Below, piece by piece: positions 10,718 through 12,911 of a stretch of DNA of 42,754 bases. The translations under genes and the position numbers were made by a program. The stretch lies in IMG/VR virus record IMGVR_UViG_3300018423_000017, positions 1-42,754 of that record, one strand, 5' to 3'. The notes under the pieces are model-generated. The model was not told the origin of the DNA. It searched no databases and saw only the letters and a program-made list of their open reading frames with translations. Source of the DNA: a virus. Every line of letters starts with the position of its first letter. Position 1 is the first letter of the stretch.

Positions 10718-11890
10718 ATGTCAGAACTACTAGAAAGTCGCTGGCAGGATACGAAGACAGCACTTCTTGAAGGCCTTCAAGGCACAAAGAAATCTGTAAT
10801 GGCTGCTACTCTTGAAAATACTCGCAAGTATTTGGCTGAGACAGCAACAGCAGGCGCTACTTCTGCCGGTAATGTCGCAACACTTAACCGTGTTATCCTA
10901 CCAGTTATCAGACGTGTAATGCCAACAGTGATTGCAAATGAACTAGTTGGTGTACAGCCGATGACCGGTCCTGTGGGTCAAATCCACACACTAAGAGTAC
11001 GCTACTCAGACACAGTTGGCTCAGGTGCCAGCGGTGCAGTAGCAGGTGAAGAAGCACTTTCACCATTCAAGATTGCTGAAAGCTACTCAGGTGACGGTAC
11101 AAATGCACCAGCACCAACAGCTTCATTAGAAGGCTCAGCTGGTAACAGACTAAGCATTCAGATCTTGAAGCAAACAGTCGAAGCTAAAACTCGTAAGCTA
11201 TCAGCTCGCTGGACTTTCGAGGCTGCTCAAGACGCACAGTCACAGCACGGCATCGACGTTGAAGCAGAAATCATGGCTGCTCTAGCACAAGAGATTACTG
11301 CTGAAATCGACCAAGAGATTATTTCATCTCTAACAACTCTAGCTGGATCAGCAGTTGAAACATACGATCAAGCAGCAGTTTCAGGTACAGCTACATTCGT
11401 TGGTGACGAGCATGCAGCACTTGCAGTTCAAATCAACCGTGCAGCAAACTTGATTGCACAGCGTACACGCCGTGGTGCTGGTAACTGGGCAGTTGTTAGC
11501 CCATTTGCGCTAACAATCCTACAGTCAGCAACAACTTCAGCGTTTGCTCGTACAACTGAAGGTACTTTTGAAGCACCAACAAACACCAAAATGGTTGGTA
11601 CACTAAACAACGCTATGAAAGTATATGTAAACACATATGCAGCAGATAGTGCAGGCGTACTAGTTGGTTACAAAGGCTCAAGCGAATCAGATGCAGCGGC
11701 ATTCTACTGCCCATACATCCCGCTAATGAGCTCAGGTGTTGTACTAGATCCAGGCACATTCGAGCCAGTCGTTTCATTCATGACACGCTACGGATATGTC
11801 GAACTAAGCAACACTGCGTCATCACTAGGTAACGCAGCTGACTACTTAGCACTAGTTGGCATTACAAACGGTAATGTAAGCTTCAGCTAA
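10718..11890 (+). CDS. gp23: Major capsid protein gp23
   Basis: The 390-residue protein is a clear T4 gp23 homologue (NRVILPVIRRVMPTVIANEL, then VGVQPMTGPVGQIHTLRVRY), shorter than T4's 521 residues and of the size usual in marine T4-like phages. An N-terminal propeptide ends in a gp21 consensus L39-A40-E41, so the mature chain probably starts at Thr42. The HK97-type shell fold is expected. Codon use is richer in G and C and more uniform than in the flanking genes, as is usual for the most abundant virion protein. The RBS is AAGGAGAATCAA. A strong terminator lies 20 bases after the stop. Confidence 0.97.
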   Translation: MSELLESRWQDTKTALLEGLQGTKKSVMAATLENTRKYLAETATAGATSAGNVATLNRVILPVIRRVMPTVIANELVGVQPMTGPVGQIHTLRVRYSDTVGSGASGAVAGEEALSPFKIAESYSGDGTNAPAPTASLEGSAGNRLSIQILKQTVEAKTRKLSARWTFEAAQDAQSQHGIDVEAEIMAALAQEITAEIDQEIISSLTTLAGSAVETYDQAAVSGTATFVGDEHAALAVQINRAANLIAQRTRRGAGNWAVVSPFALTILQSATTSAFARTTEGTFEAPTNTKMVGTLNNAMKVYVNTYAADSAGVLVGYKGSSESDAAAFYCPYIPLMSSGVVLDPGTFEPVVSFMTRYGYVELSNTASSLGNAADYLALVGITNGNVSFS

Positions 11891-11909: not shown

Positions 11910-11937
11910 AAATAGGCCCCGGCGGGGCCTATTTTTT
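11910..11937 (+). terminator. Strong Rho-independent terminator after gp23
   Basis: ATAGGCCCC, GGC, GGGGCCTAT forms a perfect GC-rich 9 bp stem (11912-11920/11924-11932) followed by seven T. It closes the capsid operon. Confidence 0.95.
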
Positions 11938-11940
11938 TGA

Positions 11941-12024
11941 CTAAATATTTTTACGTTCATCCTACGGGACGGAAGTAGCATAAAGCGAAGGAACGCACTT
12001 TAACCTTTAACGAGGAGAAGTGTT
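11941..12024 (+). promoter_or_regulatory. Weak late promoter and structured leader
   Basis: CTAAATAT at 11941 is a degenerate late element. The leader behind it folds with CGTTC (11954-11958) pairing GAACG (11991-11995) around an inner stem CTAC/GTAG (11962-11965/11975-11978). It ends in a strong GAGGAG (12012-12017) before the ATG at 12025. Confidence 0.4.
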
Positions 12025-12123
12025 ATGGATAGATTCACTTTTTGGTGCTTTCAAAAACTCATCAAACAGCATCATCAAAAAAAAGTTAATTTTTTCTTAG
12101 AAAAAATGCAAAAAAGTGGTTGA
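12025..12123 (+). CDS. Possible 32-residue ORF
   Basis: A 32-codon frame starts at an ATG eight bases after a very good GAGGAG ribosome binding site and ends at TGA 12121-12123. The peptide is basic and aromatic (MDRFTFWCFQKLIKQHHQKK and an FFLEKM stretch), with no recognised domain. It is preceded by a structured leader, and its stop codon overlaps the -35 box of the next promoter. It could be a real micro-protein or a leader peptide. The good RBS is the main support; the homopolymer runs inside it (A8, T6) count against strong coding constraint. Confidence 0.4.
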   Translation: MDRFTFWCFQKLIKQHHQKKVNFFLEKMQKSG

Positions 12124-12154
12124 CTTTTGTTGCAGTGATGTTATTATTAATACT
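12120..12154 (+). promoter_or_regulatory. Sigma70-like promoter of the second structured RNA
   Basis: TTGACT (12120-12125) is a near-consensus -35. It is followed after 17-19 bases by the AT-rich ATTATTAATACT, which contains several -10-like hexamers (ATTATT at 12143, TATTAA at 12145). Unlike the late promoters nearby, this would be read by unmodified host polymerase. Confidence 0.5.
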
Positions 12155-12398
12155 GTAGCAAGACGTTGTTACAAGGGTTGGCGCTAATAATCCTGTTTCT
12201 AGAGAGGATAAGCGCACTTGTTAGGGGTAGTGCCCGGCGTAGAGTTTGGAGACAAGCAGTGCGCTCACTGTCATACTAGACAGAGCAAGGTGCTAGACGT
12301 AACAGATGAAAGGTATCTAGACGTTTAGTTGGAGGTAAACCCAAGTCCTTCACCCACTTTTATTATAAAGCCCGATGCTTAACTGTGTCGGGCTTTTT
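12155..12398 (+). ncRNA. Structured RNA between gp23 and the tail genes, family unknown
   Basis: No open frame fills this stretch. Its composition is richer in G and C than its surroundings, and it is bracketed by a sigma70-like promoter and a strong terminator, as expected for an independently transcribed RNA of about 240 bases. Visible helices include a long hairpin 12171-12221 built of ACAAG/CTTGT, GCGCT/AGCGC (12181-12185/12211-12215) and TCCT/AGGA. Others are GGG/CCC near 12224-12235, CTGTC/GACAG (12268-12272/12279-12283) and GTTTA/TAAAC (12323-12327/12336-12340), which shows GGAGG in its loop, plus the terminator stem. It matches no tRNA, tmRNA, 6S, SRP or RNase P pattern I know. The start at 12155 is approximate. 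Confidence 0.6.
12367..12398 (+). terminator. Rho-independent terminator
   Basis: AAAGCCCGA (12367-12375) pairs perfectly with TCGGGCTTT (12388-12396), and the T-run continues into TTT. It ends the second structured RNA. Confidence 0.9.
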
Positions 12399-12406
12399 CC
12401 TTTTGT

Positions 12407-12509
12407 GATAAATACTTGTGTTAAAGAGCGAACCTCTATAACGAGGACTTATGCGGATCCTACCGCGTAGACCCTAGAACGGCAATGTTAAAACAAAAGG
12501 AGATATAAC
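12407..12509 (+). promoter_or_regulatory. Late promoter GATAAATACT with structured leader
   Basis: GATAAATACT at 12407-12416 is followed by a leader of about 90 bases with two hairpins, CCTC/GAGG and GCGG/CCGC (12453-12456/12463-12466). A CTAC/GTAG pairing overlaps the second. An 8-codon ORF (12451-12477) with a CGAGG site sits on the second hairpin. AAGGAGATATAAC serves the gene at 12510. Confidence 0.55.
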
Positions 12510-12911
12510 ATGGGACGCCCACTCAATAAAAGATACTTCGGTAGCCTTGCAACAGCAGACCAACGTGCAGCAGGTACAGAAACTCAAGAAAATATTCGTG
12601 CAGAAGCAAACCTAAATACAACTGGTCGTGTTGATGATGCATTTATTGTTTCACAAAAAGGTTCAAACAAATTTATTTTAAGAAATAAAGCTGGAGATGC
12701 AAACTCACAAACTGTTTGCCGTCTAGTAAATAAAACAACTGCAAATATAGCCTTAGGTGAAATGGTTTTATTTGGTACTGACGGAACAGGAAGTAGAATT
12801 CCTTTGAAAAAAATTACAGCACGTAGAGCTACTGATTATAATAACAATAGATACACATGGGAAGTGCAAGACGACTCTACTGAAACTGTAATTGTTCTTA
12901 CAGCACTATAA
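12510..12911 (+). CDS. Small virion structural protein (MGRPLNKRYFG family)
   Basis: The 133-residue protein begins MGRPLNKRYFG, a beginning I associate with a small structural protein common in marine T4-like phages. An Ala/Glu-rich N-terminal region (about 15-40) is followed by a beta-rich body ending YTWEVQDDSTETVIVLTAL, compatible with a small beta-barrel or sandwich. No catalytic motif is visible. It has its own late promoter, structured leader and a strong RBS, and it opens the long tail-fibre gene run, so a tail or decoration role is likely. The exact position in the virion is unknown. Confidence 0.75.
   Translation: MGRPLNKRYFGSLATADQRAAGTETQENIRAEANLNTTGRVDDAFIVSQKGSNKFILRNKAGDANSQTVCRLVNKTTANIALGEMVLFGTDGTGSRIPLKKITARRATDYNNNRYTWEVQDDSTETVIVLTAL

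Follow-up and report, generated by a model that had tools for sequence, protein, structure and literature searches.

Organization of the locus downstream of gp23

The window, that is, the whole stretch of DNA analysed here, is the complete virus record IMGVR_UViG_3300018423_000017 with a length of 42,754 bases. An Rfam scan revealed three RNAs between the gene for the major head protein and the open reading frame (ORF) at 12510-12911: a glutamine riboswitch aptamer, manA and freshwater-2. The features of this region are as follows:

10718-11890, upstream of manA: gp23, major head protein (match to PHROG 138)
11911-11937, + strand: terminator of gp23, AATAGGCCCC..GGGGCCTATTTTTTT, upstream limit of the cassette site (from the sequence)
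11952-11999: glutamine riboswitch aptamer (Rfam scan)
12120-12147, + strand: sigma70-type promoter of the manA RNA, TTGACT-16-TATTAT (from the sequence; at the same place in relatives)
12154-12173, + strand: P1, 5' hairpin of 8 bp, begins at the predicted +1 (fold; the Rfam model starts at 12156)
12156-12360, + strand: manA RNA (RF01745), full-length model match (81.2 bits; alignment; covariation)
12175-12178, + strand: 5' strand GGGU of the closing helix P2, partner ACCC at 12352-12355 (predicted fold; helix 1, 97.4% of cells paired across relatives)
12331-12351, + strand: P9, 3' hairpin, GGAGG at 12331-12335 paired with CCUUC at 12347-12351 (predicted fold; helix 6, 100% paired across relatives)
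12367-12396, + strand: intrinsic terminator of the manA RNA (from the sequence; 32 of 38 gp23-linked relatives)
12407-12415, + strand: late-promoter-like box GATAAATAC of the next unit, so labelled for its resemblance to the T4 late consensus
12432-12512, + strand: freshwater-2 RNA, leader of the ORF at 12510-12911, outside the manA unit (50.6 bits, cut-off 49.9)

The first-pass annotation had placed the RNA between head and tail genes. The head gene upstream is gp23, while the next gene after manA, the ORF at 12510-12911, gave no match in the PHROG comparison. The Rfam scan did not find wcaG RNA (RF01761) in the window, and no family of the 6S-like, pRNA or put type reached a gathering-score match there. 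ARAGORN predicted no tRNA or tmRNA gene within the window. When we searched phage records for DNA related to the whole region, the match was limited to the part with the glutamine riboswitch (4 Methylophilales phage records). Glutamine aptamers were present in 5 of 20 manA-positive gp23 loci scanned versus none of 20 manA-negative loci. In the window the aptamer is followed by a 32-codon ORF (12025-12123, within the region 11952-12123), whose stop codon overlaps the -35 box of manA.

The RNA is a member of the manA family

The RNA was identified as manA (RF01745): it scored 81.2 bits, above the cut-off of 55.2, and the match covered positions 1-192 of the 192 positions of the model. The first-pass annotation had described about 240 bases of hairpins and proposed an Rfam search, which now assigned them to a catalogued family that the annotation did not know. 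The 245 nt from 12154 to 12398 have a predicted folding energy of -91.9 kcal/mol (z = -5.46), and none of 200 shuffled sequences was equally stable. The predicted fold of this stretch reproduced the arms of the comparative model. As a full-length match above the cut-off with the same arms, the same closing helix and the same branched core, the RNA of the window agrees with RF01745. It differs from the catalogued 5'-UTR element in being an autonomous unit of promoter, RNA and terminator.

In the 2010 description, manA was rated certain as an RNA, cis-regulatory and a probable switch, and the discoverers marked its pseudoknot with "?" (PMC2864571). The Rfam type of RF01745 is Cis-reg, and its alignment was corrected in release 14.3 (PMC7779021). 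Together with manA, wcaG RNA was described as another structured RNA found in T4-like marine phages (PMC2864571); in S-CREM1 it lies near manA (PMC9964418). In the open-access literature searched, as far as its text was accessible, we found neither a ligand or function for manA nor a reading of it as a stand-alone unit.

Distribution of manA in relatives

The promoter proposed by the first-pass annotation (TTGACT with an AT-rich -10 region) consists of TTGACT at 12120-12125, a 16-nt spacer and TATTAT at 12142-12147, has 10 of 12 consensus matches and ends about 7 nt 5' of the RNA. In 7 kb we counted 26 promoter-like sites compared to 20.1 +/- 4.4 in shuffled sequences. Since a single site of this kind was not above chance, relatives were gathered.

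We collected 80 gp23 relatives, 49 of which, together with phage Melnitz, were subjected to the Rfam manA search. Matches were obtained for 17 of these 50 records, 4 over the cut-off and 13 below it; most of the marine relatives found lie below the Rfam cut-off and form divergent subtypes. A search for the core pattern yielded at least 120 virus loci, of which 101 were kept. The 19 dropped loci comprised 5 that were not the RNA (4 without a model match, 1 judged by eye) and 14 that were cut at contig ends or failed the 3'-end rule. Together with 4 copies found by Rfam this gave 105 copies, which were reduced to 68 non-redundant ones; 57 of the 68 were aligned to build the covariance model R1.

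R1 matched downstream of gp23 in 24 of the 80 loci; of the 45 for which 1.5 kb or more of downstream sequence was available, 18 matched. It also matched 96 of the 100 loci L100-L199, many of which had been used to build it. Among phage records, 37 matched the Rfam manA consensus (about 23 distinct cyanophages by a count of names), and Pelagibacter phage Mosig matched a marine manA subtype; one of these records, AG-345-L05, showed a weak R1 match of 21.8 bits. Carriers of manA are phages of Prochlorococcus, Synechococcus and Pelagibacter; those in culture include cyanophages and a SAR11 phage. Two phages with gp23 identities of 71% (Sinorhizobium phage Phosso) and 66% (Escherichia phage EC22.5-2) gave no significant R1 match within 4 kb of gp23.

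From the 38 phage records (the 37 and Mosig) 13 were examined in detail. The gene just upstream of manA was gp23 in 5 of them, pstS in 2, and regA, a ferredoxin gene, a bilin gene and an NAD-synthetase-like gene in 1 each; the remaining 2, P-RSM6 (nrdB region) and Mosig, have hypothetical ORFs upstream. The genes downstream showed no common theme, and in P-TIM68 the next gene lies on the other strand.

Cellular carriers appear to be rare. A genome collection of 84,980 species gave 27 pattern matches, all with at most 19 bits for R1. The Rfam cut-off was passed by none of 386 genomes from the phylum of a cyanobacterial MAG (2 weak matches below the cut-off) and by none of 369 from the class of Halomonas, and R1 matched none of 385 from the class of an alphaproteobacterial MAG. 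These searches considered only a small number of candidates in each genome and lacked a positive control of cellular origin, and so speak for rarity and not for absence.

Short hypothetical proteins are annotated over manA in P-HM1 (PHM1_121), P-SSM4 (PSSM4_169.1), P-HM2 (PHM2_011/012) and S-SSM5 (SSSM5_127), corresponding to loci L220, L222, L223 and L225. These proteins are probably spurious, and expression counts assigned to them may report the manA RNA instead. A strand-specific RNA-seq time course of infection exists for P-HM2 on Prochlorococcus MED4 (PMC5082946).

Conservation of the stems

In the 57 aligned manA sequences, changes on both sides were seen at 24 of 30 base pairs, and 93.4% of the paired cells were able to pair, compared to 72.6% in shuffled alignments. 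The covariation score was 0.547 versus 0.166 in shuffles (none of 500 as high) and at most 0.162 when the structure was slid along the alignment, a comparison that is biased in favour of the structure because it was derived from the same alignment. The covariation analysis proposed by the first-pass annotation therefore strongly supported the stems.

We also tested pairing between the loops of P5 and P7 as a pseudoknot, which may or may not be the one that the discoverers had marked as questionable. The effect was modest: the mean run of complementarity in 34 distinct loop pairs was 3.29 versus 3.02 after shuffling, and 12 of 2000 shuffles were as high. In the window, the two loops carry UAGU and ACUA.

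A loop exposing GGAGG, able to pair with the anti-Shine-Dalgarno sequence or with a pyrimidine-rich mRNA, had been suggested as the means of action. The motif does occur at 12331-12335. It forms the 5' arm of the last hairpin, P9, and is paired with CCUUC at 12347-12351. Only 11 of the 57 aligned relatives have GGAGG at this position; others have UGUAGG, UGUUGG, UGUGGG and similar sequences, with co-changed partners. Since GGAGG is an arm of a covarying stem, the anti-Shine-Dalgarno idea fails, and we regard this mechanism as hardly credible.

The promoter is conserved at the 5' end of the RNA

Among the matches listed, a promoter with 10 or more of the 12 consensus positions adjoins the 5' end of the RNA in 62 of the 68 non-redundant virus loci. 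The best site within 95 nt upstream scored on average 10.56 of 12 in these 68 loci, compared to 8.37 in shuffled sequences and 7.90 elsewhere in the same contigs. Spacers were 16-18 nt long, and a TG precedes the -10 region in 53 of the 68. All 13 of the phage-database copies examined have a site with at least 10 matches directly 5' of the RNA, including copies that follow pstS, regA or ferredoxin and those in the nrdB region. P-HM1 is irregular: by eye, TATAAT lies 14 nt from TTGACA, while the scorer took a 19-nt spacer. The RNA thus has its own promoter at its 5' end, as is expected of an independent small-RNA gene. Stems and promoter are both conserved in the relatives, and the lack of conservation that the first-pass annotation had named as evidence against its proposal was not observed.

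Terminator and sequences following the RNA

The strong terminator noted in the first-pass annotation is a 12-bp stem followed by a T run at 12367-12396. For the survey of terminators, 80 of 81 copies were long enough. Among the matches listed, a terminator was present in 32 of 38 gp23-linked copies versus 9.9% in shuffles, and in 7 of 29 non-redundant copies outside the gp23 context versus 0.9% in shuffles. For the phage-database copies the count was 4 of 13 (3 of 5 gp23-linked, 1 of 8 others). An earlier finder restricted to perfect stems had detected terminators in 21 of 81 copies (0.4% in shuffles) and was replaced because it missed stems with a mismatch. At the locus of the window the RNA therefore has a terminator of its own, a further feature of independent small-RNA genes.

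The median distance from the end of the RNA to the terminator is 11 nt. In its pairing with the RNA, the 5' arm of the terminator did not surpass shuffled arms (mean z = -0.21; z below -2 in 2 of 39 copies). A riboswitch acting through a terminator switch was rejected for the locus of the window, as the terminator has no overlap with the fold and does not compete with it.

Outside the gp23 context, TATAAATA follows directly 3' of the RNA in 14 of the 29 copies among the matches listed, and in most of those inspected a gp32-like gene follows about 75 nt further on. In L107, L108, L140 and similar loci, TATAAATA forms a late-promoter box about 5 nt after the end of the RNA and just 5' of the gp32-like gene. 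This arrangement may possibly represent a hand-over from an early to a late promoter at one gene. In 2 of 118 copies the 3' end of the RNA directly adjoins a tRNA-Gly (L028, 4499-4570; L071, 4366-4436), which precedes a terminator-like hairpin. Because the tRNA begins where the RNA ends, RNase P would be expected to trim the transcript there.

The cassette is modular

The cassette sits between the gp23 terminator and the late-type box of the next gene, and there are relatives that have both of these flanking elements but no cassette. Both loci that carry the cassette and loci that lack it have a hairpin with a T run of the same kind 3' of gp23. In the manA-less loci the gp23 terminator is retained, as is a box resembling a late promoter (GATAAATAC or a close variant). 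These loci often also have the freshwater-2 leader, and the distance from gp23 to the leader is sometimes below 140 nt. Freshwater-2 was detected in 9 of 20 manA-positive and 10 of 20 manA-negative loci scanned. Both kinds of loci keep the leader together with a gene start of the type ATGGGA(C/A)G(T/A/C)CC.

On a quick gp23 tree with 49 rows and many weak forks, the presence of manA required 10 changes, at least 4 of which are forced by starred branches. The RNA of the window is 94.6% identical to that of L083, which is on the same contig as L027 (gp23 88% identical), and 44% identical to the RNA on the contig of L003, its gp23 sister (gp23 94%). The cassette therefore appears to have been exchanged, which is not as expected for a cis-element tied to its neighbour.

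In the manA-less loci L029, L007, L038, L058 and L079, other small genes are located between gp23 and the freshwater-2 leader, including genes for IscU/NifU-like and cold-shock-like proteins as judged by eye. As the slot holds differing small genes, it looks like an insertion hotspot.

Interpretation of the manA unit

The element of the window is real: adjoining its major capsid gene, this marine virus has a small and complete gene whose product is a folded RNA, and its promoter, fold, terminator and modularity are features of the sequence itself. The manA family was already known, filed as a switch on an mRNA. The layout in the window and in the relatives suggests instead a stand-alone unit, with an RNA that is produced on its own as soon as infection begins. 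We consider it probable that manA is a stand-alone phage small-RNA gene that is expressed early and acts in trans as a folded RNA. Other small RNAs of phages (6S-like, pRNA, put) likewise are compact folded RNAs with their own promoter. Of the first-pass annotation, the core reading of a self-contained RNA gene with a host-type promoter, unlike its neighbours with late promoters, is supported by the comparative evidence, and the GGAGG mechanism is not.

The host polymerase (a sigma70-type holoenzyme) would start at about 12154 and produce a discrete transcript of about 215-245 nt that stops at the terminator at 12367-12396. The early timing is deduced from the promoter type. The transcript would fold into a closed, many-armed structure with a 5' hairpin, a closing helix, a junction and a possible loop-loop contact of two arms. 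It would be separate from the gp23 mRNA, which has its own terminator upstream, and from that of the next gene, which is equipped with a late-type promoter and a leader of its own. Its action in trans would most likely depend on attachment to a protein or ribonucleoprotein within the gene-expression machinery of the infected cell, and not on a conserved base-pairing stretch.

A cis-regulatory leader or riboswitch, in which the RNA would respond to a metabolite or protein and so regulate the gene downstream, would agree with the Rfam type and with the 2010 verdict "cis-reg Y, switch y" (PMC2864571). It would also agree with the terminator-less copies that directly precede genes of the gp32, rubrerythrin, peroxiredoxin and purL types. 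At the locus of the window, however, the autonomous terminator (12367-12396), the late-type box at 12407 and a leader intervene, so that the RNA is not placed in a 5'-UTR, and a downstream gene of the same kind retains its leader when manA is absent. Pairing of the terminator arm with the body of the RNA, tested in 39 copies, gave no sign of a terminator that competes with the fold as an expression platform (z = -0.21). The lack of a common theme among the genes downstream, and the reversed neighbour in P-TIM68, also speak against such control. We therefore consider a cis-regulatory role unlikely. The weakest point of our preferred reading, an independent RNA gene, is the gp32-type context, where promoter, RNA and gene can possibly also be read as a regulated leader; one RNA could serve as both.

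By analogy to HK022 put and the EAR element, the RNA might also act on the polymerase that made it, as a processive antiterminator that allows early transcription through downstream terminators. An ornate fold that begins at the +1 position of a strong promoter, in varied gene surroundings, would fit such an action, as would the many copies without a terminator after the RNA. In the gp23 context, however, 32 of 38 copies have a terminator directly after the RNA, which would serve no purpose if transcription did not pass it, and we judge antitermination to be quite improbable. That the element is a dead or incidental structured spacer would explain its patchy presence (18 of the 45 gp23 loci with sufficient downstream sequence), but strong covariation at low sequence identity and the retained promoter leave very little room for it.

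For the family as a whole, it is conceivable, though we put this forward only tentatively, that manA, instead of being a riboswitch, is an early RNA that acts in trans and is common to T4-like phages infecting cyanobacteria, SAR11 and further marine hosts. It would be a swappable cassette, often beside the major capsid gene, whose compact fold seizes the gene-expression machinery of the host within minutes after infection starts. Since 2010 manA has been counted among the riboswitch candidates (PMC2864571). Should it prove to be a separate early RNA and not a leader, the hunt for its ligand and for the gene it regulates would be misdirected.
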